Part shown: positions 9,791 through 43,198 of the stretch, one piece after another
Layout: each line of letters starts with the position of its first letter
Numbering within the stretch: position 1 is the first letter of the stretch
Assembly (NCBI RefSeq): GCF_030503675.1
Contig: NZ_CP129964.1
Coordinates: forward strand, 558,001-622,000
Source: Lutimonas zeaxanthinifaciens
Lineage (GTDB): Bacteria; Bacteroidota; Bacteroidia; Flavobacteriales; Flavobacteriaceae
Reading direction: 5' to 3'
DNA length: 64,000 bases
Translations under genes and position numbers: made by a program
The notes under the pieces: generated by a model
The model's database searches: none
What the model saw: the letters and a program-made list of their open reading frames with translations, nothing else
Told to the model about the DNA's origin: nothing

Positions 9791-9794
9791 CTGT

Positions 9795-10589
9795 TTAATT
9801 TTCTTTAATGAACTCTTTAATCATCGCAATCAGTTGGTTTCCCTTTTTGATCAAGGATTTACTGCAAGCATATCTCCAATCTGCGTTCGTTATCAAGTTT
9901 CTCAATGCAGCTTGACCTTCAGCACTTGAGCTTAACCATTCGAGAGTTTGTCTATAATTCGAAGCGCCTGCAGAATTGAATCCATTCTTCGCCAGAACAT
10001 TTGTCCAGTTGTTTCTAAACAAGAGAATGTTTTGATTTTCAGATTCACCAAGTCGCCATTCATAGGTTCGATAATACTCATTGATCGCATCGGCAAGTTC
10101 ATCCGTAACAAAGGAAAAGACACCTGAATTTTTCAGCTCTTCAATTGTTGATTTTCTCGGATCGATTCTTACAAGCCTTGAGGTGTGATCAAAAGAGACC
10201 TTTAAAAAGTCGTCATTTAAGGCGCTCGGGATTTCCCCGGGCCAATCTGTAATGTTACCTTCGTACTTTGGAACAGGACCAGATACTATCTCTTGTTCGG
10301 AAAGATCAGTTAAAGCCAACAGTTGCTGCATGCAATTAAATCGAAAAATCTGGTTATCTCTGTGATCTTCGAGTTGTAAGACATCATTTTGAATGTCATC
10401 AACCAAATTGCTCAAATAGACGTTCAAAGACTTTTTCAATTTTCTTTCCTCATTCCAATTGTTAATCTGAAGAGCAATGAGTATGCCTATCACAACCAGT
10501 ACTATCTCCCCGATAGCATATCTGCTATACTTGAAGAACTGATTATCTTGTGCTAGTCGCCAGCGTATTTTACGGAAAAATGGTAGCAT
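9795..10589 (-). CDS. DUF6090-family membrane protein D6 (MLPFF type)
   Basis: The 264-residue protein is the first gene of the D6-D5-D4 run. Its C-terminal region belongs to the subgroup with an ELKxxG motif (here EELKNSGVFSF) and a following EYYRTYEWRLGE helix, shared with D1, D12 and D14. The leader has the best copy of the TGATAACTA-aata-TAGTATCA inverted repeat, 11 bp before the ATG. A shadow frame inside is open for 63 codons but has no independent support. Confidence 0.8.
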   Translation of the reverse strand: MLPFFRKIRWRLAQDNQFFKYSRYAIGEIVLVVIGILIALQINNWNEERKLKKSLNVYLSNLVDDIQNDVLQLEDHRDNQIFRFNCMQQLLALTDLSEQEIVSGPVPKYEGNITDWPGEIPSALNDDFLKVSFDHTSRLVRIDPRKSTIEELKNSGVFSFVTDELADAINEYYRTYEWRLGESENQNILLFRNNWTNVLAKNGFNSAGASNYRQTLEWLSSSAEGQAALRNLITNADWRYACSKSLIKKGNQLIAMIKEFIKEN

Positions 10590-16096: not shown

Positions 16097-16891
16097 TTAG
16101 TCATCAAGATTTTGATCAATAATCCCAATAACTCGCTCAACTTTTTCTTTCAGGATTTCTGATGAAAGCTGACCGCTTACAGCCCATAAATTTACGAGTG
16201 AAAGCAAACTTTCAAATTCCGGATCGTTCAACAATCTGGAATATTTTAATTCCGCTACGGATGAATTTCGGTTGATTCTCCATCTCTTATCAAAATACGT
16301 ATTGTTATCCCATAGGGTTTTTACGATATAATTGTCGGATAACAGTAAAGTATGTTTTTTGGTTAAATAAGGATTTAACTGAAAAACTATTATATCCTGA
16401 AGTGCATCTTCCTTGCGTCGAAGATCATCTAATTCTCCGGTCCAATTTGAAAGAGACTTTCGGAGCGTTCCATTCTGAATAATGCTCAGTTGCCCAGAGC
16501 TAATAATGTTTTCCAAAACTCCTGTCTTGGCTTCAAAATTCGGAATATATCTGCTTAGCCCTATCAGGCTATCAATTTCAGAGTACTTGACAACTAAGCG
16601 AGGGTCCATGATTAATGAGTCAAATCTCCTGAGCCCATTTAACTGAATCTGCCTCTTACTTAAGACCGAATTAATCGTGTTTAAATTTTCCTCAAATTCT
16701 TGTTTGAGATTAAACAGTAATCTTTTCTCGAGTTCCCTTTCCTTTCTATACTCATTCCAATTGTTTATTGACAAAGCAATCAATATCCCAATAACAACAA
16801 GGACAATCTCACCAATGGCATATCGTGAGTACTTGAAGAACTGATTGTCCTGAGCTAGTCGCCAACGTATTTTACGGAAGAAGGGGAGCAT
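16097..16891 (-). CDS. DUF6090-family membrane protein D10 (MLPFF type)
   Basis: The 264-residue protein is taken from the ATG at 16891, which gives the family N-terminus; an upstream ATG would add 16 unrelated residues. LSINNWNEY follows the span. The central motif is VLENIISSGQLSIIQNGTLR, and a WTGELDDLR helix follows. The 3' flank carries one of the IHLWF-ENE relics (16043-16090). Function unknown. Confidence 0.8.
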   Translation of the reverse strand: MLPFFRKIRWRLAQDNQFFKYSRYAIGEIVLVVIGILIALSINNWNEYRKERELEKRLLFNLKQEFEENLNTINSVLSKRQIQLNGLRRFDSLIMDPRLVVKYSEIDSLIGLSRYIPNFEAKTGVLENIISSGQLSIIQNGTLRKSLSNWTGELDDLRRKEDALQDIIVFQLNPYLTKKHTLLLSDNYIVKTLWDNNTYFDKRWRINRNSSVAELKYSRLLNDPEFESLLSLVNLWAVSGQLSSEILKEKVERVIGIIDQNLDD

Positions 16892-17009
16892 TTGAATTAT
16901 TATTGATGTTTCAAGGTACGAAAAAAAAAATCGGTCCATTTCTGGAAGGGTGAGAAAATATTCATCTTTGTTTCAAGGAGAATGATTTTCAATATTGAAA
17001 TATCGCCTT

Positions 17010-17693
17010 TTATTTTGCCTCTCTGAACAGGTTTAGAATATGCGCAGATCTATCTTGCATGTAATTGTAGATTCTCAATTCTTCTTTGCGGTTTGATCGA
17101 AGATATTTTAGCTGGGTCTTGAATATGGAATCCTCTCTTAATTTTTGAAAGGCGTCGATGTCCCGTTGAGTGAATGCTTCTGTTTCTTCCGGATAGAACC
17201 CCTTTTTTATTAAATATCTTTGTAAATCGTTGGTTTCCGTCACACTCTGACCAATTCTGAGGTAATGAAAGTCTGTCCATTGGTAATATTCATAGATGCG
17301 AAACATCAATTCCCCATCATAATCATCCGAGACTATTTTACTTGATAACAACTGATTGAATCCAGTTAAAACGTAATCAGGCCAATCAACAAAGAGCATT
17401 AATCTAAAACAAGAGGCTAAATGATTTCCATCTGAACTTTCCTTATCCCATAGACTATCATCAAGGAACATATCCAAACATTCGATCTGTTTTAAAACAT
17501 CTGATTTGTCGATCAATATTTCTATGGAGTCCAACCTTATGTTATTTTCAATTTCATTCATAATCTTTCTGTAACCCTCCTTATCTTGATTCTCTTCTCG
17601 CCAATTATCAGCAAGAAATGCCATCATGACACCGATGAAAATAATTGAGATTTCAATCAAATATTTGCTGATTTTTCGGAAGAATTTGAGCAT
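17010..17693 (-). CDS. Divergent relative of the DUF6090 array, D11
   Basis: The 227-residue protein starts like the family (MLKFFRKISK) but lacks the KYAIGE box and goes directly into a membrane span (about 12-28) that ends ADNWREE instead of NNWNE. The rest follows the family plan, with GFNQLLSSKIVSDDY at the central motif and YEYYQW after it. It is probably an ancient paralogue or a sister family. Its leader has the TGATA...ATCA-type repeat of the MLPFF genes, so it was integrated into the same expression context. Confidence 0.65.
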   Translation of the reverse strand: MLKFFRKISKYLIEISIIFIGVMMAFLADNWREENQDKEGYRKIMNEIENNIRLDSIEILIDKSDVLKQIECLDMFLDDSLWDKESSDGNHLASCFRLMLFVDWPDYVLTGFNQLLSSKIVSDDYDGELMFRIYEYYQWTDFHYLRIGQSVTETNDLQRYLIKKGFYPEETEAFTQRDIDAFQKLREDSIFKTQLKYLRSNRKEELRIYNYMQDRSAHILNLFREAK

Positions 17694-17703
17694 CTGCTAA
17701 GTT

Positions 17704-17862
17704 TTATAACTAAATATAGCATCAGTGGTTGAGATGAAATAATGGATATGGACGAAAAGCATCGAATGACTTCCGAAAGTCATGGATTATTTATCGAGAT
17801 GTTTATATGAGCATCAGCTCCGGAGCCGGAACTCGAAAATTGCAGGCTGGGGTATTGAAAAG
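17704..17862. repeat. Operator-like repeat plus spacer relic upstream of D11
   Basis: 17704-17724 is a decayed copy of TGATAACTA-aata-TAGTATCA. From about 17740 to 17862 the sequence follows the spacer family (GGACGAAaaGCATcgaatgAC, ATTATTTATCGAGATGTTTATA, then GGCTGGGGTATTG). The plus-strand frame is broken here. Confidence 0.5.
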
Positions 17863-17912
17863 AGACCTGCAATAATTTAATCACATTACCATTTACCTTT
17901 CTAATTATAAGT

Positions 17913-18713
17913 TTAATTAGAAAGCACTTCTTCATCGATCATAAGAATTAAGTTTTGGGCCTGAGCGATTAAAACATCTGCGGATGCAGCTATCCATAGA
18001 GACTCTCTAGCCATTCTTTGAACTAAATACATTCGATTTAAGTTTCCACGAATTAAATCTAAAGGCTCATTCAAAGTCATGATGCTTGATGTCAATAAAC
18101 CTTCTTTTCCAAGAGATGTTTCCCATAATTCACGAATTTCTTCATTCTTATTTTCTTTTGTTTCCCCAATTCTTTGATCAGCAATTGTGTAATAAGAGTT
18201 GATGGCGCTTTTCAATTCATTTTTTTCTAAATAAGAATACATTCCGGTACTTTTGAACTCGTCCAGAGCTGCATGATTTAAATCTTGATTGACGAGTCGA
18301 TGAGACCATAAAAATGCTAATCTTATAAATTCAGGATCATATTTTGAAGGGTATGGTTTTTTCCAAATAGAATTCGTTTCAAATGGAAACATTCTTAACT
18401 CATCACCTTTATAATCAAAAATGGGATGACCAGATTGATCCAAGAGGTATTGAAAAGCATAAAATTTGAAAACATTTACAGCTTTAAGGTCCTTTAAAAC
18501 TAGAACATCGCTATTTAAATTTTGCCGAAGGTTTTCAAGGTATACTTTTACTTTTGCATCCTTTTCTTTCTCTTCCTTCCAAGTGTTAATCTGAAGAGCA
18601 ATGAGTATACCTATAACCACTAGAACTATTTCCCCAATCGCATATCGGGAGTATTTGAAGAACTGATTGTCTTGAGCTAATCGCCAGCGTATTTTTCTAA
18701 AGAATGGTAGCAT
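17913..18713 (-). CDS. DUF6090-family membrane protein D12 (MLPFF type)
   Basis: The 266-residue protein has INTWKEEKE after the span, with Lys replacing the usual Asn. The C-terminal part is of the ELKSTG subgroup: LDEFKSTGMYSYLE, then NSYYTIADQRIGE, and a long C-terminal amphipathic helix. It closely resembles D14 and D6 in layout. It is the last gene of the D14-D13-D12 run; 22 bp separate it from D13. Confidence 0.8.
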   Translation of the reverse strand: MLPFFRKIRWRLAQDNQFFKYSRYAIGEIVLVVIGILIALQINTWKEEKEKDAKVKVYLENLRQNLNSDVLVLKDLKAVNVFKFYAFQYLLDQSGHPIFDYKGDELRMFPFETNSIWKKPYPSKYDPEFIRLAFLWSHRLVNQDLNHAALDEFKSTGMYSYLEKNELKSAINSYYTIADQRIGETKENKNEEIRELWETSLGKEGLLTSSIMTLNEPLDLIRGNLNRMYLVQRMARESLWIAASADVLIAQAQNLILMIDEEVLSN

Positions 18714-18735
18714 CTTTTGGTTGTTTATTTTAACG

Positions 18736-19560
18736 CTAAAAGAGAGTTTTGGCTAGTTCTATTTCAATTTCAGCCAACGCTTTGTTCATATTCATTTCAT
18801 AAAGTCTATGTATGTGCAACTGCATGACTCGATAAGTCATTACCTGATTGACATATGAGTTTAGTTCAGCATCTTGAACCATTGCATCCCAGTCAAAATA
18901 CTCTTGTACTGAAACCTGTTCATTCGTCAAATCCATCCCAAGGTATGGAACCTTATTGCCATCGTTCACATATAACTGACCCAAAATTCTCTGTATCCTT
19001 GATCTTACAAATGGAGAAGTCGAATGGTAATGTAACCTATCAAGATAATCTTGATAAGAACTAATAATACTGGTTTTAATTATTGTTTGACCCCAATCGT
19101 CCTTGTTGTAAATTTCACCGATTATCGATACCAAAGAATCATTTTCTATTAATTCCATATTGCCAGAGGTGACTAGACTCTGATATGCAGCCTCAGTTGG
19201 TCTGAAAATTGCAAATGTTCCTGCGAGCGAAAGAGAATTAGCTAATTCAACCGTATCAATCTTTGTCAACTCAGAGTTCAAGAATCTGCTTACTAAAATT
19301 GCTGAATTATCACCTAAAAGAAGGAAGGAGTTCATGTTTTCAAGGCTTTTCAAACTGAATTTCAGTTCATTCCTCAATTTAATTAGATTCCCTGATAATT
19401 CTTGCCTCATTTTCCTCTCCTCATTCCAATTATTTATCTGCAATGCTATAAGTATCCCAATCACGACTAGCACAATCTCGCCAATAGCATATCTGCTATA
19501 CTTGAATAACTGATTATCTTGGGCTAACCGGTATCGTATTTTACGGAAGAATGGGAACAT
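18736..19560 (-). CDS. DUF6090-family membrane protein D13 (MLPFF type)
   Basis: The ATG at 19560 gives MFPFFRKIRYRL and lies 4 bp beyond the D14 stop; the longer start would overlap D14. The protein has 274 residues. The central motif is AYQSLVTSGNMELIENDSL, the cleanest match to D3. The order subgroup-ELKSTG gene, motif gene, then a third gene is the same in the D14-D13-D12 and D6-D5-D4 runs, so the two runs may stem from one duplicated operon. Confidence 0.8.
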   Translation of the reverse strand: MFPFFRKIRYRLAQDNQLFKYSRYAIGEIVLVVIGILIALQINNWNEERKMRQELSGNLIKLRNELKFSLKSLENMNSFLLLGDNSAILVSRFLNSELTKIDTVELANSLSLAGTFAIFRPTEAAYQSLVTSGNMELIENDSLVSIIGEIYNKDDWGQTIIKTSIISSYQDYLDRLHYHSTSPFVRSRIQRILGQLYVNDGNKVPYLGMDLTNEQVSVQEYFDWDAMVQDAELNSYVNQVMTYRVMQLHIHRLYEMNMNKALAEIEIELAKTLF

Positions 19561-19564
19561 AACT

Positions 19565-20371
19565 TTAGTGATAAATAAGTTCTTTTTCAATCAATTCTAA
19601 GATTATTAACAATTGATCAATACTATTTTGGGCCATTGTTGCCCTCCATTGCGCTATTCCCATAAGGTTTTTGACTAGACCAGTCCTAAAAGGACTTTTT
19701 TCAATATACCGAAGCGGATCACTTACGTTGGTTACATCAATATAAGTGATCCCATCCTCTAATAATGATTTTTCCCAGGTTGTTTCCAAAAAGTAATTTT
19801 TCGTATATAAATGTTCTTCTAAATGAGACTCTACAATACTATAGTATTGGTTCAATGCATTTTTCAATTCCTTGCTTGAAATTTTAGAATATATGCCCGT
19901 GCTTTTTATTTCTTCCAGAGTTTCTTTGTGGATATTTACTGGAACATGACGTCCAGTCCATGAAAAAGCAACTTGAATAAACTCCATATTTTTTTCTTTC
20001 GGAATAGAATCTTTATAAATCCAATTTGATCGATAGGGAACCATCTTTTCAAAATCTTTCAATTCTTCAGTATTTATGGCAGATTCTCCAATAAAATCTA
20101 AAATTTTTTTCATTGAATAGTATCTGAACATTTCCGTTTCTTTAGAAAACTCTAAAACTTTCAAATCTTCTTGCAAGTCTAACTTTAGCGATGATAGATT
20201 TTCCTTTAGCGACTGTTCTCCTTTCTTCTCCTCATTCCAATTATTGATTTGAAGCGCAATAAGAATTCCAACTACCACCAACACTATCTCCCCAATCGCA
20301 TACCTAGAGTATTTGAAGAACTGATTGTCTCGGGCTAAACGCCAGCGTATTTTTCGGAAGAATGGAAGCAT
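19565..20371 (-). CDS. DUF6090-family membrane protein D14 (MLPFF type)
   Basis: The 268-residue protein heads the D14-D13-D12 run. It belongs to the ELKSTG subgroup: LEEIKSTGIYSKIS, then NQYYSIVESHLEEH. A membrane module is followed by NNWNEEKK. The leader includes the TGAAAACTA-aata-TAGTATCA element 11 bp before the ATG. The hydrophobic core positions agree with D12 through most of the length, but surface residues differ widely, a pattern expected for a diversified ectodomain. Confidence 0.8.
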   Translation of the reverse strand: MLPFFRKIRWRLARDNQFFKYSRYAIGEIVLVVVGILIALQINNWNEEKKGEQSLKENLSSLKLDLQEDLKVLEFSKETEMFRYYSMKKILDFIGESAINTEELKDFEKMVPYRSNWIYKDSIPKEKNMEFIQVAFSWTGRHVPVNIHKETLEEIKSTGIYSKISSKELKNALNQYYSIVESHLEEHLYTKNYFLETTWEKSLLEDGITYIDVTNVSDPLRYIEKSPFRTGLVKNLMGIAQWRATMAQNSIDQLLIILELIEKELIYH

Positions 20372-22603: not shown

Positions 22604-22620
22604 GTGACCTCGACAGGATT
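22604..22620. repeat. att-like repeat 1 (tRNA-Arg 3' end copy)
   Basis: GTGACCTCGACAGGATT is identical over 17 bp to 43124-43140 inside the tRNA-Arg gene. On the minus strand it is followed by a terminator stem, as a real tRNA 3' end would be. It may be the original chromosomal end or the scar of an earlier insertion. Confidence 0.7.
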
Positions 22621-22678
22621 ATTTCATGATCCTTAGGAGCTCCGAATTCCGAAAAGAAATCCCTCTCCTTCGTCGAAT

Positions 22679-22751
22679 GGGCTTTTTGTTTATTCTTATC
22701 GTTCAAGTTGCACTTGACTCAACACCAAACAAAAAGCCCAGCGTTCCGCTG
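22679..22751. repeat. Nested hairpin, module 2
   Basis: GGGCTTTTTGTTT (22679-22691) pairs perfectly with AAACAAAAAGCCC (22727-22739); the loop holds CAAGT-tgc-ACTTG (22704-22716). It is followed by CAGCG-ttc-CGCTG (22739-22751). The architecture is the same as module 1 but the sequence is different. Confidence 0.65.
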
Positions 22752-22766
22752 AGCTTTCTTTTCTTA

Positions 22767-22782
22767 GTGACCTCGACAGGAT
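22767..22782. repeat. att-like repeat 2, probable left end of the element
   Basis: GTGACCTCGACAGGAT matches the tRNA-Arg 3' end at 43124 (17 bp if the preceding A is counted). It is the copy nearest the integrase gene (214 bp away), so it is the best candidate for attL of the element that ends at 43124-43140. Confidence 0.7.
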
Positions 22783-24364: not shown

Positions 24365-24847
24365 ATGAATTTCCAAAATTATTTTCATTTTTTCAGAGAT
24401 AAAAGGGATATAAGAGGATTTCCTGATTCACGGAAATTTTACAATTACCTCAGAGAATTATTTTTTGACTATTCTTGTTATAAGTGGAAGGTGAAAAAAT
24501 TCAACCTTTTTGTTGCCGAAAATGATCTCGATTATGAATTTTGTGTCAATCTCCTAAAAGATTTCTATCAATATAATTCAACTGAATATTTTATTAGAAA
24601 AAAGGGATTTAGAGATTTTATAACATTTTTACAGAATAATTTATCACGATTTGCATCGAAGAACACCTCAAGAATCAAATTGAAAATTGATCGTGATATT
24701 TTCATCCATGAATGTTACGCTTTTTATAAAAATTCCACAGTCTTAACTAAGCAAGAAATATTCATTCAAATGGCTCGGAATTTTGACATAGGTCTGAGTA
24801 CTTCGTCTTTAAAATCATATTACTACAAGAAAATATATAATATTTGA
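24365..24847 (+). CDS. Element-borne protein of unknown function
   Basis: The 160-residue protein is basic and unusually rich in Phe and Tyr, predicted all-helical. The C-terminal part (QMARNFDIGLSTSSLKSYY) could form a helix-turn-helix. It has no signal or span. It lies 25 bp after the integrase and may be its operon partner, perhaps a DNA-binding accessory. I do not recognise the family. Confidence 0.55.
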   Translation: MNFQNYFHFFRDKRDIRGFPDSRKFYNYLRELFFDYSCYKWKVKKFNLFVAENDLDYEFCVNLLKDFYQYNSTEYFIRKKGFRDFITFLQNNLSRFASKNTSRIKLKIDRDIFIHECYAFYKNSTVLTKQEIFIQMARNFDIGLSTSSLKSYYYKKIYNI

Positions 24848-25182: not shown

Positions 25183-25458
25183 ATGGAAAACATTCAGTTC
25201 ATTGGCTTAACGCCAACCCAATTAGTCGATCTTATCGATGACAGAAACCAACATCGTTTAGAAGAGTTAAAAAGAAGCTATTGTCTCAAAGAACCTGAAG
25301 AATATTTGACTCGTGATGAAGTAAAAAAAATGCTCAAGGTCGATCTGTCAACAATTCATAACTGGACCAAAAAAGGTTATTTAATTCATTACGGTATTGG
25401 GGGAAGGGTTTACTACAAGAGATCAGAATTAGAGAATGCATTAATAAGACTCAAATAA
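25183..25458 (+). CDS. Excisionase-like helix-turn-helix protein
   Basis: The 91-residue protein has a C-terminal half of MerR/excisionase type: EYLTRDEVKKMLKVDLSTIH forms the helix-turn-helix, then WTKKGYL and a short wing with GRVYYKRSEL. Such proteins act as recombination directionality factors or as small regulators in Bacteroidota mobile elements. It is the first gene of a three-gene run with the 25467 and 25730 genes (gaps of 8 and 2 bp). Confidence 0.8.
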   Translation: MENIQFIGLTPTQLVDLIDDRNQHRLEELKRSYCLKEPEEYLTRDEVKKMLKVDLSTIHNWTKKGYLIHYGIGGRVYYKRSELENALIRLK

Positions 25459-25466
25459 ATACCCCG

Positions 25467-25727
25467 ATGAAACAACTTCAATCAAATTTCATCGGAAAGG
25501 GAGAAGTAAAAGGGTACAAATTTTCTCTTCTGGGCATGACAGATCGAGCATTTATCTACGAAGTTAACTCCGGTGGTAGCAAACATTATGAAGTATTTAA
25601 AAAGAGGCTAAATCATCTTTTCGGATGTATTTCTTATCCAACATCAAAAGCATTCGGAATCTGGGCCTGGACCTACAACGATCTCAGAGCTGCGATAAGA
25701 AAGTACAATTATTTGTCAGGATTTTAG
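25467..25727 (+). CDS. Small protein between excisionase and polymerase-like gene
   Basis: The 86-residue protein is predicted mixed alpha/beta (GYKFSLLGM, AFIYEV, KHYEVFKKR, FGIWAWTYNDL). No family is recognised. Its tight spacing, 2 bp before the polymerase-like start, suggests a role in the same process, for instance an accessory of replication or DNA binding. Confidence 0.55.
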   Translation: MKQLQSNFIGKGEVKGYKFSLLGMTDRAFIYEVNSGGSKHYEVFKKRLNHLFGCISYPTSKAFGIWAWTYNDLRAAIRKYNYLSGF

Positions 25728-25729
25728 CT

Positions 25730-27025
25730 ATGAGGGTCAACAAACCAATAACATGGTATATGCCGGAGTTACTAATCACACGGCTCCGGCAACGGCTCAT
25801 TGATAAACCGCCGTATTTCAAATACCGCAAGGAAGTCTTTTATTACATCGTTCACCAACTAATTATCATCGAACAGATCAGGAAGAAAGAGGAGTATCAT
25901 GTCTTGAATAAATCAAAATTAAGGGACGTAACTATTTGTGATCCATATAAATATATCAAATACTTAGAAAATGGTGAATTTATAATCAGCGACAATAAGC
26001 ATCAGAGAGGCAAAAAAAGTAAATGGTATAAGATCAACGAGAAGTTAAAGCAAGGGGTAATTAAAGTTGTGCTAGAACCAACTTCTAAACTATATAAAGC
26101 CATTATCAAATTTCAACGCAAAAGAAGGGCTCATTTTAATAGATTGGCTCCACATTTAAAGTTGATGAAGGACAAATTTATGGGAATGGAGCTTGATTAT
26201 TCCAGAGCTTACAAATGGGCGGAAAGGTGCCCGGAAACCGCTAAACGATACAGTTATATAACTACTATCAACAATATCGAGGATAAACGCTTCAGGTATT
26301 TTAAAAGAAACAAAACTAATAATCGTCTGGACACAAACCTGACGAACCTAAAAAGTGATCTCCGGCAATATATGATAGGAGACTTTGTCAGCATAGATGT
26401 AAGAAATTCCCAACCGTTCCTTTTAGCTATTCTACTACAAAGCATCCTGTATCCTAAGGGTACCTTATGTTGGTATTTACAGGAGGGCAATCTGGCCAAA
26501 ACCTTTGGTATAAGGGTAATCGAACGGATCGTATTAGTTCACCAAAAACAGGAAAAAGCAGAAATGGTGAATTTTAGAAGCTTCCAAGACTCGGTCGTCC
26601 AAGGTCAATTATATGATAATTTCATCGAGCTACATTCTGGTAATATTGAAAGGTGTCAAGCCAAGGAGATTATGTTCGAGGTACTCTTTTCTCAAAATAC
26701 GATCTATAAACATGGAGGTAAATTTATTCCGTACAAGGAGGATAAAAGAATCTTTGCCAGGTCGTATCCTTTCGTTGCTCAGGCTGTTAAGGATCTTAAG
26801 AGCAAGAACCATAAAATTCTTCCAATATATCTACAGCAACTTGAGAGCTACCTGTTTATTGATCGTATTGCCAAGGAGCTTGTTGAAAATGGTGTTATAC
26901 CTTTTACTATTCATGACTCAGTAATAGTTAATGCAAGTGATCAGGAGAAAACGCTTGGAATAATGACCAAGCTTTTTAAGGAAGAACTGGGATTAGTACC
27001 AGCACTTGACATCAAGAAAATGTAA
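25730..27025 (+). CDS. Family A-like (single-subunit) polymerase of a mobile element
   Basis: The 431-residue protein is read from the ATG at 25730 next to an AGGA site; an earlier start overlaps the previous gene. Four motifs match the palm and fingers of PolI-type polymerases in order. R199-L-D precedes motif A. D223 lies in SIDVRNSQPF (Asp plus Gln228 at the steric-gate position). The fingers helix has R308, K312, F316 and F320 at exact four-residue spacing, as R-x3-K-x3-F-x3-Y in PolI. H395-D396-S397 in IHDSVIV is motif C. There is no 3'-5' exonuclease domain. A DNA polymerase for element replication is the best guess; T7-type RNA polymerase also has HDS in motif C. Confidence 0.6.
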   Translation: MRVNKPITWYMPELLITRLRQRLIDKPPYFKYRKEVFYYIVHQLIIIEQIRKKEEYHVLNKSKLRDVTICDPYKYIKYLENGEFIISDNKHQRGKKSKWYKINEKLKQGVIKVVLEPTSKLYKAIIKFQRKRRAHFNRLAPHLKLMKDKFMGMELDYSRAYKWAERCPETAKRYSYITTINNIEDKRFRYFKRNKTNNRLDTNLTNLKSDLRQYMIGDFVSIDVRNSQPFLLAILLQSILYPKGTLCWYLQEGNLAKTFGIRVIERIVLVHQKQEKAEMVNFRSFQDSVVQGQLYDNFIELHSGNIERCQAKEIMFEVLFSQNTIYKHGGKFIPYKEDKRIFARSYPFVAQAVKDLKSKNHKILPIYLQQLESYLFIDRIAKELVENGVIPFTIHDSVIVNASDQEKTLGIMTKLFKEELGLVPALDIKKM

Positions 27026-27551: not shown

Positions 27552-28994
27552 CTATCGGATTTTTTTAGCTTCGTAGTTTTGAACTTTTATTCCACTAATT
27601 GAGTCTGAATCTTTAAGAAATGTAAAATATTCGCCGTTTTGCTTATCGAAAAAGGTGTCATTAGATTCAGGCAGCAATATAAAGGGTTCCTCTGTAAAAT
27701 CTGCTACAGCTTCTAATCCATTATCTTTAACGATTATCTCAATATTCCCAAATTCAGGGAAATTATATTCACCAATGAATTTCTCTAAGTCTTGAAGAGG
27801 CAATTTTTTCACTGTACGCTTCTTTGGCTCGATTCCTGGTAATTGATACTCTTTCGACATGCTTAGTAGAACTTCCTGAATAATACTGCCATTATCAGAG
27901 TTGACCATTATTACAACTGCTACTGGCTTATCTTTCCATGCTATGAGGTTCGCTCTGAACCCTTCGTCCGCTCCTCCATGCCCAAAGGTATGCTCGCTTA
28001 CTCCAGGACCAAGCCCATGATCATTCATTCCGGGGGTAAGCATTTCATCAACCGTTTCTTTGCTCAATATACCATCTTCTTTAAGCTGATGTATTTTTTG
28101 AATTTCTTTCGCCCATAAAATAAGTTCCGATGGTGTCGTCCACAGGCCGGCGGCGGCCATCTCAGGGTATATAGGCCATTTTCCTTCTACTTCGTTGCCA
28201 TCAGTCCTGTAACCAGTAGCTGCTAACGAATGATATTGATCGGGCAATGGGTTTTCAAATGTACTTGAATTCATTCCCAAAGGATTCAAAACAGCGTCTT
28301 GCATAATCTCTGGAAATTTCCTTCCTTCAATATCAGTAATCATGAGCTGCATAATCGTATAACCTCCACCGGAGTACATCCAACTTTCACCAGGCTCCTT
28401 GTAGACTCTTACTGAATCGGTGTTTCCTTTTCCGTCCAGAACGTCAACAACACTTGGTATTGTATCACCCTTATCATATCCTGGAAATCCCCAAACTGTC
28501 AAACCTGCAGTATGGTTCAATATTCTTCGAGTTGTTACTTTTTCATTTTGGGTAAACTCATTGTCTGGAACCTTCCAGCTAACTAAATAATTATTAACAT
28601 TAGTATCAAGTTCGAACCTATCTTCTTCGACCAATTGCAAAGTTCTGGTAGCAGCCACCGGTTTACTTATAGACCCTGCTAAAAACAATGTTTCTGTAGT
28701 TACTTCCCGACTTTCAGTGCTATCTGCCATTCCATAGCCCCGGGCCCACTCTACTTCACCATTGTTCAAAACTGCGATACTCAACCCAGGAATTCCCAAT
28801 TCTTTCAACCTTTCTTCTAAGTTGTAAACAGGAATAGTATCACCCTGTATCTGAAGATCTGGCTGAAGACCATTTTCGATTCTTTGAATTCTTTCATTGA
28901 GCAATTCTTCCTCCACCTTTGACTTAGGAGAACAATTAATTAAAAGAAATAATACTAGGTATAATACGACGATTTGATTCGTTAGTTTTTTCAA
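27552..28994 (-). CDS. Serine hydrolase of the beta-lactamase class C family, lipoprotein
   Basis: The 480-residue protein has lipobox Cys21 (LLINC). The penicillin-binding-protein-like fold shows the nucleophile motif S108-I-S-K111, Y207-S-G as the second motif and HGG (in FGHGGADEG) as the third. From about residue 400 a beta-rich domain starts (FIGEYNF) of the DUF3471 kind. These proteins are esterases or peptidases more often than true beta-lactamases. It is anchored in the envelope and stands alone. The C-terminal domain type recurs in D8 and in the dioxygenase. Confidence 0.85.
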   Translation of the reverse strand: MKKLTNQIVVLYLVLFLLINCSPKSKVEEELLNERIQRIENGLQPDLQIQGDTIPVYNLEERLKELGIPGLSIAVLNNGEVEWARGYGMADSTESREVTTETLFLAGSISKPVAATRTLQLVEEDRFELDTNVNNYLVSWKVPDNEFTQNEKVTTRRILNHTAGLTVWGFPGYDKGDTIPSVVDVLDGKGNTDSVRVYKEPGESWMYSGGGYTIMQLMITDIEGRKFPEIMQDAVLNPLGMNSSTFENPLPDQYHSLAATGYRTDGNEVEGKWPIYPEMAAAGLWTTPSELILWAKEIQKIHQLKEDGILSKETVDEMLTPGMNDHGLGPGVSEHTFGHGGADEGFRANLIAWKDKPVAVVIMVNSDNGSIIQEVLLSMSKEYQLPGIEPKKRTVKKLPLQDLEKFIGEYNFPEFGNIEIIVKDNGLEAVADFTEEPFILLPESNDTFFDKQNGEYFTFLKDSDSISGIKVQNYEAKKIR

Positions 28995-29374
28995 TAGACT
29001 AAAATTGTTTTTAAATTAAGCAGTGATTAACTGAATCAATTTGAATGATTTTGGTTTGTCCTACAAGGTAATAATTTTAGAGATAAGAGCTAACGCTTGT
29101 GACTATTGGAAAAAAGAAAATACCTTGCTTCATTCGACAATTAACCGACATATTATGTCATACACTACCAAGAGTAAGGCTTTTCCTTACCAAAAAATCA
29201 ATATTAGTTTCTAACTTTGGATTATGGTAGAAATGCAAGGTTTAACGCTTCAAGAATTACAGGACTTATTCGATGTTTCAAATAATGAAGTGTGGGAATG
29301 AATGTTATAAAATTGTCAAGAATGGCGGAATAAAAAAACCCTCGTTTCCAGCATCGGAAAGTAAATAATTAATA
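28995..29374. other. Intergenic region with palindrome and small open frame
   Basis: It holds GACATAtTATGTC (29147-29159), a perfect TAACTTTG promoter box (29212-29219) and a 25-codon frame (29224-29301). The palindrome with its flanks (CCGACAyATyATGTCATA) matches 4550-4567, where a similar short frame follows. The remaining sequence shows nothing recognisable. Confidence 0.45.
29224..29301 (+). other. 25-codon open frame behind a promoter box
   Basis: ATG at 29224 reads MVEMQGLTLQELQDLFDVS then NNEVWE and stop. LQDLFDVS resembles LQDLYDAS of the frame at 4602. TAACTTTG five bases upstream fits the -7 box, though it would leave almost no leader. It may be a short peptide gene or a truncated gene start. 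Confidence 0.3.
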
Positions 29375-29884
29375 TCAATCTCTCAATGTGAACTCAAAAT
29401 ATCCCTCTGTAATTTCATGCCTTTGGCCTCCTCCAGAGGATTCGGTTATTCCAGAAAAAGTTCCTTCAAATCTTTCTCCTAGTTCGATGAGTTCGACAGT
29501 GCCGCTTTTAAAGTATTCGATGGGAGGAGACGTTTGATTCGATTCATCACTGTCCCAGCCACAACCTGTTTGATTATAATAATCAAATCGGATTAGGGAT
29601 TTATCAGGCATGATCTCTTGCTCTCCAAAATCATTAACCAAATTTAAATAGAAGTCTATTTTGTTTCTACAGTCGACTGCACCAAATCCTAGTATCCCTT
29701 CTTCCGGGAAATTACCTTGATAGGTAATTGTTCCACCCCATACTTTCAATGTATAAGACCTACCATTTATCTTCATATTTACAGATCCAATGTACTCAGG
29801 CCCCCAATTATCGTCACTATCATCGTCACCACCGCATTGAACAAATAAAAGCGCAATTGCGATCAAAAAAGTATACCATTTCAT
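29375..29884 (-). CDS. Small lipoprotein, unknown
   Basis: The 169-residue protein has lipobox FVQC17 followed by an Asp-rich linker (GGDDDSDDN), typical of outer-membrane lipoproteins in this phylum. The mature domain is beta-rich, with GSVNMKINGRSYTLK near the start and RHEITEGYFEFTL at the end, resembling the small beta-sandwich lipoproteins of unknown function common in flavobacteria. Paired TGAT-N4-ATCA boxes lie 50-90 bp upstream. Confidence 0.7.
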   Translation of the reverse strand: MKWYTFLIAIALLFVQCGGDDDSDDNWGPEYIGSVNMKINGRSYTLKVWGGTITYQGNFPEEGILGFGAVDCRNKIDFYLNLVNDFGEQEIMPDKSLIRFDYYNQTGCGWDSDESNQTSPPIEYFKSGTVELIELGERFEGTFSGITESSGGGQRHEITEGYFEFTLRD

Positions 29885-29935
29885 ATCAATCGATTTAGTC
29901 TTGAATGAAATTAGACAATAAATGATTCTTAATAA

Positions 29936-29971
29936 ATGATCCCAATCAAATTAAAGAGTGATTCTAATCAA
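29936..29971 (-). promoter_or_regulatory. Paired TGAT-N4-ATCA boxes upstream of the 169-aa lipoprotein gene
   Basis: ATGATCCCAATCAA (29936-29949) and GTGATTCTAATCAA (29958-29971) have centres 22 bp apart. The N4 parts differ from those at other genes, which argues that the outer bases are what is conserved. Confidence 0.55.
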
Positions 29972-30063
29972 CAAAAACCTCTACCCTGAAGTAAGTGGAA
30001 TATGGAGTTAGATAAAATGATTGAGGAGTTGGGGGAAATTAGTATTTGATATGAGGAGGATGA

Positions 30064-31149
30064 TTAATGGATTTTCTTATTCTTGAATCGTACATTGGCG
30101 ATTTTATACACAAAATCTGAAACTTCACCCATTTCGTTAAAATGAAACCTATAATATCCTGTACTTGGATATTTGGTGGAAATAAAACACGATTTCGAAA
30201 TTGGATAAATCTCTGCTTTAGAATAAAAGCCATCATTTTTATATCTCGTCATATTCAACATATTATTAACTGTATCGATCACTCCATATTCCGCCGTAGA
30301 TTCTTCGAACCAATTATCCCCATATGAATCCCACTGAACCAATTTGTATCGCCCCATGACATATTTATAATCCATTGGGTTATAGCGAAAATGAAGAGAG
30401 TCGTTGTGTTGAAGATCATTTTTCTCCAGATATTGATAAACAGAAAGATAACTCTTCAAATATTTCTGAAACCATAATTGAAGACGGGATAAGTGAGATC
30501 TTGTTGTTAACAATGAATATTCTGCCGCAATCTTTTTGAACTCTGGATCGTTCAGGTAAAATTCAATTTCATTTTCTCCGTAAGGCTGATTCAATATGAG
30601 ATCTACATACCAATCATGTCTTTTAAAAGATTCCATAGTTTTATAATATAAATCCTCGCTTTTTACAGCGGCCGTTCTTGATTCTTGAATGGAATCCTTA
30701 TTGTAGAGGTTTGACAACATCTTGCTAATTGAAAGCTGTTCTTCATTCAAGCCATTTTCAATATCCATTAACTTCTTAAATGCCTTGTCCTCAATAGTAA
30801 AGCCCCAAGTATCAAAAAAGGATCTATATAATTTTAAAGTATCCTTGTCTAATTGCTCTCTTTTCAGTCCTCCATACAATATCTCGGAGCACAGTGAATC
30901 TTGTACAGTTAATGCTTTTACTCCCTCAAATGCATTGTATGTATTCCAAATTAGTTCTGCTTCGACCTCAACAAGAATTTCATTGAACTTTTCCTGTTCT
31001 TTTCTCTCTTCGTTTTGGTTATTGATATACAAGGCAATCAATATCCCCAACACAACCAAAACAATCTCGCCCACGGCATATTTCAAATACTTAAAAAATT
31101 GGCTATTGGCTAAAAGGTCTCGACGGATTTTACGGAAGAAGTGAAGCAT
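30064..31149 (-). CDS. DUF6090-family membrane protein D15 (MLHFF type, long form)
   Basis: The 361-residue protein has the MLHFFRKIRRDLL start, a span at about 26-42 and YINNQNEERK. The middle helical part and the C-terminal beta-rich domain (from YVMGRYKLVQW) are homologous to D17 over the whole length, including the ending K-K-(I/V)-H, so D15 and D17 are a duplicated pair with D16 between them. It lies inside the presumed integrative element. Confidence 0.8.
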   Translation of the reverse strand: MLHFFRKIRRDLLANSQFFKYLKYAVGEIVLVVLGILIALYINNQNEERKEQEKFNEILVEVEAELIWNTYNAFEGVKALTVQDSLCSEILYGGLKREQLDKDTLKLYRSFFDTWGFTIEDKAFKKLMDIENGLNEEQLSISKMLSNLYNKDSIQESRTAAVKSEDLYYKTMESFKRHDWYVDLILNQPYGENEIEFYLNDPEFKKIAAEYSLLTTRSHLSRLQLWFQKYLKSYLSVYQYLEKNDLQHNDSLHFRYNPMDYKYVMGRYKLVQWDSYGDNWFEESTAEYGVIDTVNNMLNMTRYKNDGFYSKAEIYPISKSCFISTKYPSTGYYRFHFNEMGEVSDFVYKIANVRFKNKKIH

Positions 31150-31328
31150 AAGATCTGGATTGACCTTTAAAGGTAACTAGCTGATCTAAAAATTACTATG
31201 ATAATTGTCATTAGGAAACTAAACGGTTATCATCTCCGGTGGTCGGGGAATTCCATTATGATGTTTACGATGCCATGAGCAAATTACTAGGGGATGCTTG
31301 GAGTAAGATGCCAGAGGTGAATAATTGA
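31150..31328. repeat. 178-bp spacer repeat, copy 1
   Basis: It is nearly identical to 32438-32614. It starts directly at the D15 ATG with the leader palindrome ACCTTTAAAGGT (31163-31174), then ATGATAATTGTCAT (31198-31211), then GTTTACGATGCCATGAG and AAGATGCCaGAGGTGAATAATT. The second half also occurs at 10705-10804 and the last part at 7945-7990. Confidence 0.75.
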
Positions 31329-31375
31329 AGTTTAGCGGTGGATAATATCCATCTTTGGTTTGAGGAGAATGAGGA

Positions 31376-32437
31376 TCAATCAACTCTCCGAAACATCGGT
31401 CTTTTTCCATCTATCTCATCAAGGCTTTTTGTTGTTAATGTTATTCCTACAACCTTTTTGTCTGCGTCAAAATGAATTTGATGCATTCCTACAAGACTGA
31501 AATCTTGATTCCTGATTATATGATATGAATCAGAATAGGGGTGAACAATAAGTTCAATCTCCAAATGATCATTTTTGAAATATCGAAGTTTCATTTGATC
31601 TTCCCCTGAGATTTCAACTTTTTCCACATCTGAGTTCGGACGAATTAACTCATATGTGCCTCTGTATTGCTGATAGTCCTCCAAGTTTCTAGTTATTGAA
31701 GAATCTTTAGCCAAACTTAATGCGTCGCAGATATCTTCATAAGCCTTTAGTGACTTTAATCTGAAAATATTCACCCAATATAAATGATTTCTCGTACCAA
31801 CAAAATAAATGTCAGCGACCTCATTACGATAATACTCATCGTTTAAACAGTACTCTATCAATTCGTCACTAGTTTTACTATTCCTAAAATCGGAGAAAGA
31901 AGGGATTTCACGTTTTAATTTGTCTCTAAGTTCAAGTGCTTGATCCGTCATATCTTCATCGTAGTTGTCCACAAAGTTTTTCTCATTTCCATAAATATCT
32001 TTGAGCCTCGAGACGATAGTGTCCAACTGTGGTGAAAAGCTGCTGTATCCTCGAATTAGTTTTTGAAAGTTGTCATCAATAGGGTTAACTTGCCTATGGT
32101 CCAATGGGAAGTTGACGTGAAGGAAAAAATCAGACTTGTAATCTTCATAGGTTAACTTTTTGTTTAGCATCTTAAAAAAAAGTGAATCATTCTCCAATCG
32201 GTAGTCGATAACTACCTCTGACTTGATAATGTTTTTGGCCAATTCCAGGGCAACTTCTTCCAATAGAATTTTTGTTTGATCTCTTGCCTTACGTTCCTCA
32301 TTCCAATTATTAATCTGCAGGGCAATCAATATCCCCAGAACTACCAATACAATCTCACCTATAGCATATTTCAAATACTTAAAAAATTGGCTATTGGCTA
32401 AAAGGTCTCTACGGATTTTACGGAAGAAGTGAAGCAT
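31376..32437 (-). CDS. DUF6090-family membrane protein D16 (MLHFF type, long form)
   Basis: The 353-residue protein has an N-terminus like D15 and D17 but with LQINNWNEERK after the span, as in MLPFF proteins. The middle part is distinct. The C-terminal domain starts YRGTYELIRP and ends MFRRVD; it is related to, but clearly apart from, the D15/D17 type. It is bounded on both sides by the 178-bp spacer, so gene and spacer look like one repeat unit. Confidence 0.8.
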   Translation of the reverse strand: MLHFFRKIRRDLLANSQFFKYLKYAIGEIVLVVLGILIALQINNWNEERKARDQTKILLEEVALELAKNIIKSEVVIDYRLENDSLFFKMLNKKLTYEDYKSDFFLHVNFPLDHRQVNPIDDNFQKLIRGYSSFSPQLDTIVSRLKDIYGNEKNFVDNYDEDMTDQALELRDKLKREIPSFSDFRNSKTSDELIEYCLNDEYYRNEVADIYFVGTRNHLYWVNIFRLKSLKAYEDICDALSLAKDSSITRNLEDYQQYRGTYELIRPNSDVEKVEISGEDQMKLRYFKNDHLEIELIVHPYSDSYHIIRNQDFSLVGMHQIHFDADKKVVGITLTTKSLDEIDGKRPMFRRVD

Positions 32438-32614
32438 AAGGTCTGGATTGACCTTTAAAGGTAACTACCTGATCCAAAAATTACTATGATAATTGTCATT
32501 AGGAAACTAAACGGTTATCATCTCCGGTAGTTAGGAAATTCGGTTATGATGTTTACGATGCCATGAGCAAACTACTAGGGAATGCCTTGAGTAAGATGCC
32601 TGAGGTGAATAATT
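32438..32614. repeat. 178-bp spacer repeat, copy 2
   Basis: It matches 31150-31328 almost base for base from the ATG of D16 to the stop of D17, with ACCTTTAAAGGT at 32451-32462. The right end, AAGATGCCtGAGGTGAATAATTAG, overlaps the D17 stop codon, exactly as at D7 and D4. Confidence 0.75.
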
Positions 32615-33698
32615 AGTGGACTTTTTTTGATTTAACCCTCAATATTCCAAAATTATGTTCCAGAAAAGTGACCTCTTTTAAATCATTATAGAGTATTCTT
32701 CTATATCCAGATTCGTGAATGCCTTTGGTCACAAAAGTGGTGCTGTTAAGTGGGAATATTTTAGATTTTCCGGTTAAACTATCCTTTACAAAGTATTTTA
32801 TGACGTATTCATTATTCTCTAACTCTATCTCACTACTAAAATACTCTGCATCAGGAATATTTTCTTTAAGTAGATAAGACATTTCAACTGGTTTATATTT
32901 TCCAATCCAATGTTGATATTCACTTAAATTGAAGGTGAAATGAAGTGAGTCATTATGCTTAATATTATGATTCTCAAGATAGTCATAAACAATATTGTAT
33001 GTTTTATAATACTTTTGAAACCAATTTAAAATCCATCGAAAATAGTCGTGCATAGTTCTTCTCAAGAACTCAGCTGCATTTTTCTTATATTCTTTGTCAT
33101 GAAGATAATAATCGATTTCCTCCTTGCTGTAGGGCTCCCCTAAAGAATAATCTATAAACCAGTCATATCGCTTTAAAGAATTGAAGATGCTAATTTCCCG
33201 ATCCCGGCTATCCTGGCTAAGAAGATGAGTATAATGTATTGAATCAGTATTGTATAATTTTGTCATGATACGACCAATTGCCTTCTGTTCTTTAGTAAGT
33301 CCATTATTGTTTTCTATTAATCTTCTAAAAACTTTGTCCTCAACCTCAAATCCAAAGCCACCATACAAGTCTCGGAATCGGAATGAAGAATCTTCCTCAA
33401 GCTGCGCCCTGGTTAATTTGTCGTTAACAACGATATTGTTTAATGAATCTCGCCAAATCAAGGACTTCATACCTAAAAGGGCATTTTGAGTATTCCAAAT
33501 AAGCTCTTCTTCGAGTTCAGCAAGAATTTCATTGAACTTTTCCTGTTCTTTCCTTTGTTCATTTTGGTTATTGATATACAAGGCTATCAATATCCCCAAC
33601 ACAACCAAAATTATTTCCCCTAGAGCATATTTCAAATACTTAAAAAATTGGCTATTGGCTAAAAGGTCTCGACGGATTCTACGGAAGAAGTGAAGCAT
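32613..33698 (-). CDS. DUF6090-family membrane protein D17 (MLHFF type, long form)
   Basis: The 361-residue protein has the same length as D15 and can be aligned throughout (for example KRYDWFIDYSLGEPYSKEE against KRHDWYVDLILNQPYGENE). The beta-rich C-terminal domain starts HWIGKYKPVE. Sequence differences are spread over the ectodomain while residues 1-50 stay nearly constant. It is the outermost gene of the three-gene block and has its own leader upstream. Confidence 0.8.
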   Translation of the reverse strand: MLHFFRRIRRDLLANSQFFKYLKYALGEIILVVLGILIALYINNQNEQRKEQEKFNEILAELEEELIWNTQNALLGMKSLIWRDSLNNIVVNDKLTRAQLEEDSSFRFRDLYGGFGFEVEDKVFRRLIENNNGLTKEQKAIGRIMTKLYNTDSIHYTHLLSQDSRDREISIFNSLKRYDWFIDYSLGEPYSKEEIDYYLHDKEYKKNAAEFLRRTMHDYFRWILNWFQKYYKTYNIVYDYLENHNIKHNDSLHFTFNLSEYQHWIGKYKPVEMSYLLKENIPDAEYFSSEIELENNEYVIKYFVKDSLTGKSKIFPLNSTTFVTKGIHESGYRRILYNDLKEVTFLEHNFGILRVKSKKVH

Positions 33699-38036: not shown

Positions 38037-41000
38037 GTGAGCAAGAAGATTGGACGAAATGATAAGTGCCCATGTGGAAGTGGTAAGAAATACAAAAAGT
38101 GCTGTATTAACTCTGGGCGTAGATTTAATACCACTCAAGCCCAGGCTGAACCTCCTTCTATCTTCAGTCAATACAATTCTGTTGACCTGATTAAAACTTT
38201 TGCTGGCCTCACACTTTTACCACAAAATCATGGTAAGAATGTCAGATTAGAAGTACTGACCAGAAAAGCGGCACAGAACTTTAACGAGCAGAATACAATT
38301 CCAGAAACAGAACTTCAAGCTTATCTGGGTGAGCATTATGCTATGCATTATCTGGAAGATCCCGCAACCAATCTATTCACTGATCTTATCACATTTTATG
38401 ATGGAGATTTTATCATTTTCCCAGGTATTACGGACGGAGGAAGCTATGTACTCACCTATTTGTTAACTGCCATTTACAACTGGCCTGAGTCTGGTATCCC
38501 GGAGCAGTTCAGGAGCAACTGTGCTCATGTTTCCCGATTAATGCTGAATCTATCGAACAACATTGCGCAAAGCTTAGGCTATCAACGATACACGAAAGAC
38601 CAAGTAGAAAACAATGCCATTCATTTCCCAACGAGTGTTCAGCTCAACCGATTGAAGAATGCCATAGTGTTTAGTGAAGACGAAATGCAACAACTTCTTC
38701 TGGAAGAGCAAATTGCACCACAAGCACTTGACTGTTTTATTCTGGACAGGAACGATCGGGCACTGCAAACTGAACACATGCAGGATAGCCCTTTATTAAA
38801 ACAGCCAATTATTCATCACAACCAAGAATACATTATTGCTTCACCTGCCACATTAAGCTATGCGTTAACAGAGTGGATCTTAACAGAGGCAACAGCTGCA
38901 GGTTGTCAGGAGCAAGTAAGTCAGGCATATCATAATACAATCTGGAATTACACTCAGCTCCATTTAGGGCAACTTGGCTTTTCTCGTGTTGAAGTTTCTA
39001 CCATTCCTGAAACCAACGACCCCAATATAAGAGAAGCAATTTATCGTTTTGATGACGATAAACTGGCTTTTGTACAATATGTATCTGAAGGCACCGATCA
39101 TCAAGAAAGGAAGCAGCATATTATAAACAACACTTTAGCGCTATCAGAATTTACAGGGTATAAGTTCATGGACATTACATTGGTTTCATCTATGGGCAGA
39201 GAACTATTCTTCATGTTCAGCAGAACCGAAAATTCGAAGAGCATTGGCATGCCCATTCATGACTTTGACACATTGATCAAACTGAAGGAACATACAGCTT
39301 TCGATTTATGGAAATATGCCACGGCCTGGGAAGAAAAATTAGGCGATAATCCACCAATGGGAGCTTCCTTTTTAGATGTTTTTAAGGTTTATAAGGAAAA
39401 AGAAGACTCTTTTTACATTTCAGATGATGCCGCTCAAGTAATGCTGCATGTAGAACCGGGGTATGCGGAGGATTTATATCAAGGAGCAAAGTTACTTACT
39501 GATGAGCATTCGGCACTTAGATCAATGGAAGGTGGCAGGTTAGCCAATATTCCTGTTGAAAGAAAAGACAAGTACTCACCTATCTACTATTCAAAATCAG
39601 ATTTAGAGAATGAGTTGCAATTTTTGGTCATAGGTTATCATCAGCCCGTTTGGGTTTCTCCAATCAAAGACGTGAACACCATCCATGAAGTAGCAAGGGG
39701 ATTATATTTTGAAATGAATGACGCCATAGCTTATTGGTTGTGGCAATGTCAGGAACATATTAAAGATGAGGTAGCCATTTTGGGAGTTGCTCCCCTTACC
39801 GTCAAATTTGAATTTGATCAGGAAGAACGTTTTCACCCTATTGAACGAAATTTTGATAGAGACCCGGATTTCACAAATCACTTCACTGTGAGTGCAGCTA
39901 ACAATGAAATCTCTATTTCCATCCCACCGTCCATAATCCCATACCTCTATGGAGCGGATAATGAAGGCGAAAGAGTGCTTTTACGGCAACTCATAAATGG
40001 GTTCAATCAGCTTCTTACGAGCAACGAACAGGCCAACATAACAGAAAACCGAATCGATGAGATTATTGATGAAGTAGCACCATTAGGCGCTAAAAAGAAG
40101 GTATTTATTCTTGATACGGCAGACAACCTATTGCTTGACCCTTCCAATTTAGACAAGCACCGCTACATTCAAGACTATGATGTAAATGTGGTGTTGGATA
40201 GCATAGTACCAGGCTTGGGAGACTTGTGTCCGGAAACAGGAGATATTATGGAAAAAGCAGATAAAACAACGCTGACCAGAAACATTGTCATGCGGTTTTT
40301 ACTGCCCAAACTTCAAACTACAATCAGTCAGTATGACAATGAGGTACTGCTAAAAAGATTGATTAGTCTTAATGAAAGTCTGATCAGAAAAAGAGAAGAT
40401 TTAAGGATAAAGACACCAACCCGGATCGCATGTTTTGTTTCAGTAAGGGAGCAAACTGAGGATCTACAAGATAGTCTGTCCATACTCAATCAGACAACCA
40501 TAGCTGTTAGATGTTTAATTGAACATTTGGCAGCAGAACCAAGTACAGGAAACAAGATTGTAAGCACTGCGGCAATTGACGAACTCATTGCTATAATGAG
40601 TGCAATTATTGACTGGGGTTCATTAGGTGATCAAATTGAATTTGACCTTTTTGATATTGAAATGGGCATCCTTCCTTCGGGAAGAGTAGGTACGTCTAAG
40701 AAACTAATTAAGGAAATATTTGACCCATACCATTCTTCAAAGTCAAAAGAGAACGTACAAAACGCACTCGATACCTTCGAGCAAGCATTCCCGCAACTAA
40801 ATCCAGTCGAAGGAAAGGATGTACCCGAAAACTTGGACAAGGCTTACATGGAGGAATTTGGAATATCGTTCACTCGCATTTGCGAGTTCATTAATGATCT
40901 TGGAATAATAGCATATCAGCAACCTGCTGCCTGTGCAAGTCTATCAAAAAGCGACCTATTCGTACAAATCAACCAACAGGACCATGTTTTCACTCAAGAG

Positions 41001-41771: not shown

Positions 41772-41777
41772 AAACCC

Positions 41778-41843: not shown

Positions 41844-41852
41844 ATTTGAGAA

Positions 41853-43115: not shown

Positions 43116-43123
43116 ATTGTAAA

Positions 43124-43140
43124 GTGACCTCGACAGGATT
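43124..43140. repeat. att-like repeat 3 (attR within tRNA-Arg)
   Basis: GTGACCTCGACAGGATT covers the last part of the tRNA gene (T arm and acceptor strand). The copies at 22604 (17 bp identical) and 22767 (16 bp) delimit about 20.4 kb of DNA carrying the integrase. Confidence 0.75.
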
Positions 43141-43198
43141 CAAACCTGTAACCTTCTGAGCCGTAATCAGATGCGCTATTCAGTTGCGCCACGAGGCC
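43125..43198 (-). tRNA. tRNA-Arg (anticodon ACG)
   Basis: The 74-nt minus-strand sequence folds as a standard cloverleaf: acceptor GGCCTCG/CGAGGTC with one G-T pair, D stem GCGC/GCGC, anticodon stem TCTGA/TCAGA with loop TTACGGC (anticodon ACG, reading CGU), T stem ACAGG/CCTGT, discriminator A. No CCA is encoded. A TATATTTG promoter box lies 17 bp upstream. The 3' end is used as an integration site. Confidence 0.95.

Follow-up and report, generated by a model that had tools for sequence, protein, structure and literature searches.

A 64,000-nt stretch of the Lutimonas zeaxanthinifaciens chromosome (contig NZ_CP129964.1; hereafter the window, all coordinates being window positions) exhibits an open reading frame (ORF) of 431 codons, P0001, within an island inserted at a tRNA-Arg gene. 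The predicted structure makes P0001 a compact, exonuclease-less member of the family A DNA polymerase superfamily with an N-terminal winged helix, and presumably a catalytic one. We consider it rather probable that this winged-helix polymerase serves as the replication protein of an element that integrates at tRNA genes. A preliminary description, made from the DNA letters alone, had proposed a family A-like polymerase on a mobile element. The polymerase assignment is upheld by fold comparison and by family-wide conservation of motifs, and the mobile element by linkage to integrase and HTH_17 genes and by a relative lacking the insertion at the same place.

The P0001 model exhibits a palm and fingers of the Pol I type over residues 137-431, the topology on which the preliminary description had made its assignment depend. 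The best 50 fold matches listed are all DNA polymerases, with 10-17% identity; T7 RNA polymerase is absent among them, and from such a list no exclusion follows. The placement of secondary structure elements and the superposition suggest that D223 and D396 are close in space. Residues 1-115, overlooked in the preliminary description, are modelled as a winged helix, and this front domain probably grips DNA. The likeness to family A DNA polymerases (E. coli Pol I Klenow, T7 gp5, Pol theta) extends to the palm and fingers fold, the order of motifs, the Asp pair, the R-x3-K helix, the Q/E helix and the H-D hairpin. In contrast to these enzymes, P0001 is only 431 aa long, has a short thumb region, carries the winged helix in front and has no space for a 3'-5' or a 5'-3' exonuclease. 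The proposed lack of room for an exonuclease thus holds; the long thumb, also said to be missing, is reduced rather than demonstrably absent, the family A match starting ahead of motif 1, near model residue 137.

Two compact proteins of a viral-protein library, BFVD, match P0001 structurally over nearly the entire length: A0A516L5C2 (409 aa, unnamed; E-value = 1.1e-23, TM 0.71/0.75) and A0A8D9FR19 (403 aa, "Putative DNA polymerase I [uncultured marine phage]"; E-value = 2.2e-15, TM 0.67/0.71). They share 21-25% identity with P0001 and, unlike it, were not seen in tRNA-integrating elements. There is also a weak resemblance, common to many regulators, to 4pt7 ("Structure of initiator") and 4pql ("N-Terminal domain of DNA binding protein"), which we take to be plasmid RepA proteins and which differ from P0001 in having no polymerase domain.

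Seven residues, R199, D223, Y295, K312, E372, H395 and D396, are invariant in an alignment of 74 relatives (alignment A3, P0001 numbering). They belong to a conserved series, R-L/F-H-S/T-x-L-T-N (motif 1), D-x3-S-Q-P (motif A), R-x3-K-x3-F-x3-F/Y (motif B), a Q-x2-E helix and I-H-D-S (motif C), and as read from the alignment the invariant residues run in family A motif order. The motif 1 stretch has its Pol I equivalent in R-L-S-S..P-N-L. Within motif B, position 308 is R in 64 sequences and K in 7, position 316 is F in 45, L in 14 and M in 12, and position 320 is F in 57 and Y in 17. The D223, Q228, R-x3-K-x3-F-x3-F and H-D-S motifs named in the preliminary description are therefore present and conserved above chance. 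Part of the invariance is a selection effect, the genome scans having relied on patterns placed at motifs 1, A and C; a set of 16 members collected by whole-protein search has nine invariant positions, with all seven residues among them.

Sequence comparison with named families is less direct. Pfam, PHROGs, NCBIfam, PADLOC and PDB sequences yielded no acceptable match to P0001, and weak Pfam and PHROG matches of its family were set aside. PF00476 (DNA_pol_A) does not match P0001 at E-value≤10 and is absent from the 19 families listed for the 16 members (E-value≤1). Against PDB sequences neither the single protein nor the 74-member profile found anything, and the 16-member profile gave two chance-level flagellar matches. 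In profile-profile alignment with 22 PolA sequences, residues 190-431 stay in register from motif B through motif C (local P = 0.0066, global P = 0.00066), a result that is weak alone. The same holds for seven phage RNA polymerases, matched locally at motif C only (P = 0.0041) and globally elsewhere (P = 0.0098), and for the whole family profile, which locally matches PolA at motif B (P = 0.019) and RNA polymerase at motif C (P = 0.0096).

Family A DNA polymerases have a steric-gate Glu in motif A and a Glu after the H-D of motif C. The P0001 family departs from this consensus with Gln at the gate (Q228, 72/74) and Ser after H-D (S397, 68/74), residues that may leave room for the use of nucleoside triphosphates (NTPs) or for self-priming. 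A possible, if rather unlikely, alternative builds on these departures: P0001 would be a primer-maker or RNA synthesiser, a family A fold taking NTPs and making a primer of RNA, or a short transcript, at the element origin, from which a host polymerase copies. The H-D-S of motif C is found likewise in T7 RNA polymerase (IHDSFGT), and is the point of both local RNA polymerase matches obtained with hhalign. Of the commonest neighbour clusters (labelled from sequences and scanned in part), none was recognised as primase-like, and a DnaG zinc-ribbon protein occurs in one delimited element. The alternative is opposed by the DNA polymerases that make up the best 50 structural matches, and by the extent of the alignments: the local PolA match spans motif B to C, whereas the RNA polymerase match covers motif C only and its global alignment falls in an unrelated N-terminal region. 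That P0001 is a single-subunit RNA polymerase transcribing the element is very improbable. Both H-D-S in motif C and D-x3-S in motif A resemble T7 RNA polymerase, and phrog_2051 ("RNA polymerase") touches 2 of the 74 members (best E-value = 0.016); yet P0001, at 431 aa, has about half the length of T7 RNA polymerase (883 aa), the fold matches listed are DNA polymerases, and no promoter-like repeats stood out between genes.

The island carrying the polymerase is a tRNA-targeting integrative element, bounded by an exact repeat of the tRNA-Arg 3' end (Table 1) and not at that place in a relative. In that relative (genome G253), a segment beside the tRNA-Arg gene is 100% identical over 171 bp to window positions 22612-22782. 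There the tRNA is directly followed by 155 bases identical to window positions 22766-22612, and positions 22783-43123 are not at that place. Beyond the 155 bases the two sequences diverge; across the tRNA, the neighbouring gene shows 91% identity at the protein level. The island is an insertion of about 20.4 kb, larger than the 25183-27025 segment first described, with the integrase-polymerase module at one end. A smaller element of 4-5 kb ending just past the polymerase was rejected. Copies of the tRNA end occur in the window at 22604, 22766 and 43124 only, which puts the end of the island at the tRNA. An outer boundary of the integrase-polymerase module by itself was not found. The extra copy at 22604 is probably the scar of an earlier insertion. 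Inverted repeats precede each tRNA-end copy in 22604-22782.

The polymerase gene recurs in a module. Loci sharing identical last 200 polymerase residues were first removed, leaving 108 non-redundant loci; neighbour counts refer to blastp clusters (single linkage, within 7 kb), each of which took its name from one or a few of its members, so that a few may be unrelated. A clustered integrase is found in 72 loci, an HTH_17 protein in 58 and both in 48. The nearest integrase lies upstream on the same strand in 58 loci and downstream in convergent orientation in 12; 15 of the 36 loci without a clustered integrase are within 3 kb of the end of the available DNA. In 29 of the 55 cases on the same strand, the HTH_17 stop is at most 20 bases from the polymerase start, with a one-base overlap in 20, many of them mutually close relatives; this closeness is a sign of coupled translation. 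A tRNA gene lies within 600 bp of 37 of the 72 integrases, against a background that averages 0.046 tRNA per kb across these loci. It is tRNA-Ser in 22 cases, the rest being Arg, Met, Asn, Gly, His, Pro and Val.

At six loci, 18-46-bp tRNA-end repeats enclose the polymerase and delimit elements of about 8-16 kb. Repeats at neighbouring tandem tRNA genes (L062, L081, L149), one lying 244 bp away from the tRNA (L141) and a 13-bp match (L172) were not counted as element ends. Among 33 selected ORFs of five of these elements (the sixth being L086), Pfam identifies integrases, methylases, resolvases, AAA_24, DUF3871, DUF5131, HTH, HNH and GIY-YIG domains and the DnaG zinc ribbon mentioned above; no relaxase, helicase, terminase or virion protein was found in them at E-value≤1e-5. 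Exact terminal overlap, the sign of a circular plasmid, was absent in the contigs of L126-L129, L141 and five other loci.

How the element might replicate can be outlined from these features. The tyrosine integrase and the HTH_17 protein would excise the element in circular form. The polymerase would then bind an origin on it through its winged helix, and the palm and fingers would extend a primer there, be it a host transcript, a host primase product or one made by the enzyme itself. This extension would open replication for the host fork proteins, and the copy number would rise before transfer and re-integration. A search for the origin as intergenic repeats in the window revealed only AT-rich, short or imperfect ones. 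A stronger proposal, which we hold to be unlikely, is a self-sufficient "Rep-polymerase": the winged helix would pick the origin and the family A palm would both start chains, primerless or with NTPs, and extend them, thereby replacing initiator, primase and polymerase across a class of Bacteroidota elements and in common with huge phages.

The clearest evidence against the polymerase as the element's replication protein comes from a plasmid of Hymenobacter qilianensis (L210), on which an annotated replication initiator and a polymerase relative are both present (29230-30450 and 2824-4398). The polymerase would be an addition on this plasmid, and a reading of the plasmid as possible proof of a sole replication gene was dropped, the full record showing the separate initiator. 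The earlier statement that the element carries a polymerase instead of a Rep or primase protein fits the module in the window and has limits elsewhere: besides the Hymenobacter initiator and the DnaG zinc ribbon, an AAA_24-like ATPase cluster occurs near the polymerase in 13 of the 108 loci. The enzyme might also be cargo, an accessory enzyme for repair, lesion bypass or anti-phage activity, which seems quite improbable. Small polymerases can be defence genes, and the islands do carry defence-like cargo (a cluster reading as type I restriction in 21/108 loci; a Upx-like protein here). A cargo role is opposed by the recurring order beside integrase and HTH_17 genes, often with overlapping stop and start, and the polymerase has no PADLOC match at E-value≤0.01. 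A recurrent DUF3871 cluster (14 loci) and the AAA_24-like cluster, seen for instance in L133, L139 and L141, are possibly an accessory replication or recombination pair.

Relatives of P0001 occur across Bacteroidota. Several single-protein scans found none; a single-protein search of genomes of the same family found them in 19 of 299, including the own genome and a decayed copy in G157, and a profile search of genomes of the phylum in 16 of 395, again with the own genome. A pattern scan of a genome collection, which can miss relatives outside Bacteroidota, gave 112 matching stretches, 88 encoding a relative; the best 80 were kept and yielded 79 loci, all titled with Bacteroidota taxa save L126, titled merely "bacterium". 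L093, which has no polymerase frame, was left out. A relative occurs in 1 of 72,556 plasmids and in 6 of 50,697 phage records, the latter (LR756501, LR756502, LR756503, LR756504, LR756511, LR745206) all uncultured genomes of 0.60-0.74 Mb. By tblastn these belong to the same family (23-35% identity over the matched parts); they differ in their setting, the host records being very large phage genomes. The family phrog_4756, of unknown function, matches 19 of the 74 members (best E-value = 2.7e-11) and may be a phage branch of the family. The family tree has many long branches and serves as context only. Recent movement of the gene is indicated by the polymerases of L103, L105 and L111, which are almost identical although the records are of Maribacter, Winogradskyella and Algibacter, and by two records (L106, L124) that share an identical one.

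Some relatives are damaged, with two frames in L063/L138, stops in G157 and split frames in L122 and L150. Such breakage, together with the composite look of the island, would agree with P0001 being a decayed, functionless remnant in this genome. We judge this most improbable, the window copy being a full open frame with every invariant residue, beside integrase and HTH_17 frames that are open and match their families. Two polymerase-family frames occur in one locus (L143 and L144), one of them a 255-aa partial. One of the 74 members strongly matches HNH endonuclease models (phrog_59, E-value = 1.5e-40), and L079 encodes a 686-aa version of the polymerase (8523-10583); these are perhaps homing-endonuclease insertions or fusions.

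A replication gene of an integrative element is usually identified as one for a Rep protein, a primase or a helicase. The Bacteroidota islands of this class, of which some carry restriction-like or other anti-phage genes, have a polymerase instead, nameless in the libraries searched, and such elements are for that reason easy to miss. Phage satellites and integrative mobilizable elements of the PICI, PICMI and tycheposon types are likewise small tRNA-integrated islands with an integrase, an HTH protein, a replication gene and defence cargo; in contrast to theirs, the replication gene here would be a family A-like polymerase with a winged helix. The family A fold and satellite-like elements are both known; what appears to be new is this compact form with a winged helix and no exonuclease, next to the integrase in a class of Bacteroidota elements. 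The parts of the literature available to us hold no description that we recognised of such elements or of a winged-helix family A polymerase, and an earlier one is possible, for instance in the 2023 reclassification of family A. Charybdis elements (PMC12324425) are something else. With its changed nucleotide gate and motif C, this small family A-type enzyme offers a test case for the divide between the DNA and RNA polymerase branches of the fold, and for whether such an enzyme can start chains unaided.

Table 1. Features of the polymerase gene and of the island in the window
Feature	Position	Strand	Basis or remark
Compact family A-like polymerase P0001, 431 aa	25730..27025	+	ORF call, alignment, model
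P0001 parts			winged-helix-like, residues 1-115; helical linker or short thumb, ~120-184; palm and fingers, ~190-431
R199 codon	26324..26326	+	motif 1, invariant 74/74
D223 codon	26396..26398	+	motif A Asp, invariant 74/74
Fingers helix (motif B) R308-K312-F316-F320	26651..26689	+	helix 308-320 in model; conservation
Motif C H395-D396-S397	26912..26920	+	between two strands in model; conservation
Tyrosine integrase, 447 aa	22996..24339	+	PF13102 1.1e-11, PF00589 1.3e-8, phrog_1 1e-20
160-aa ORF between integrase and HTH_17	24365..24847	+	no confident library match
91-aa helix-turn-helix protein	25183..25458	+	PF12728 HTH_17, E-value 1.5e-11; PHROG excisionase models
86-aa ORF	25467..25727	+	stop 2 bases before polymerase start
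tRNA-Arg(acg), insertion target	43124..43198	-	ARAGORN and Rfam RF00005
Attachment site, tRNA end of island	43123..43139	.	17-bp repeat of 22766-22782
Attachment-site copy (17 bp), integrase end	22766..22782	.	exact repeat of 43123-43139, tRNA-Arg 3' end
Second 17-bp copy of tRNA-Arg 3' end	22604..22620	.	exact repeat GTGACCTCGACAGGATT

The preliminary description had placed the HTH_17, 86-aa and polymerase ORFs correctly, all on the plus strand. The start of the 431-aa frame, 2 bases past the stop of the 86-aa ORF, agrees with that of the closest homologue (L003, 55% identical); a 466-aa reading of the same frame uses an in-frame start further upstream. P0001 is a single copy in its genome. 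An ordinary PolA is encoded on the host chromosome as well, at 304.5 kb, and a PF00476-family search of the genome found that one place. The 91-aa HTH_17 protein, for which an excisionase-like role had been suggested, is by its Pfam and PHROG matches a probable excisionase or recombination directionality factor. For the 86-aa ORF, four libraries gave no acceptable match, and phmmer found no relative at an E-value of 1e-3 across the 108 loci. The slot of the 160-aa ORF is filled by a different ORF in several relatives.

The window sequence at 34.6-36.4 kb and the repeated genes (16-20 and 30-34 kb) have relatives that follow the tRNA in G253 without the integrase-polymerase module, so that the island interior may be composite. 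The repeated genes are tandem paralogues with starts of the MLPFFRKIR/MLHFFRKIR type (16097-20371 and 30064-33698) on both sides of the attachment site, an array that is rearranged in G253. Beside the tRNA end of the island (38037-42947) lie a gene for a 1244-aa SEC-C protein, matching the PADLOC Upx model over residues 514-1192 (E-value = 6.5e-49), and, after it, one for a 364-aa protein without match; the two are a possible anti-phage pair. A further island gene (27552-28994) exhibits a beta-lactamase-family serine hydrolase domain (PF00144, E-value = 1.1e-48) and DUF3471, and its product is as likely an esterase- or peptidase-like lipoprotein as a resistance enzyme.
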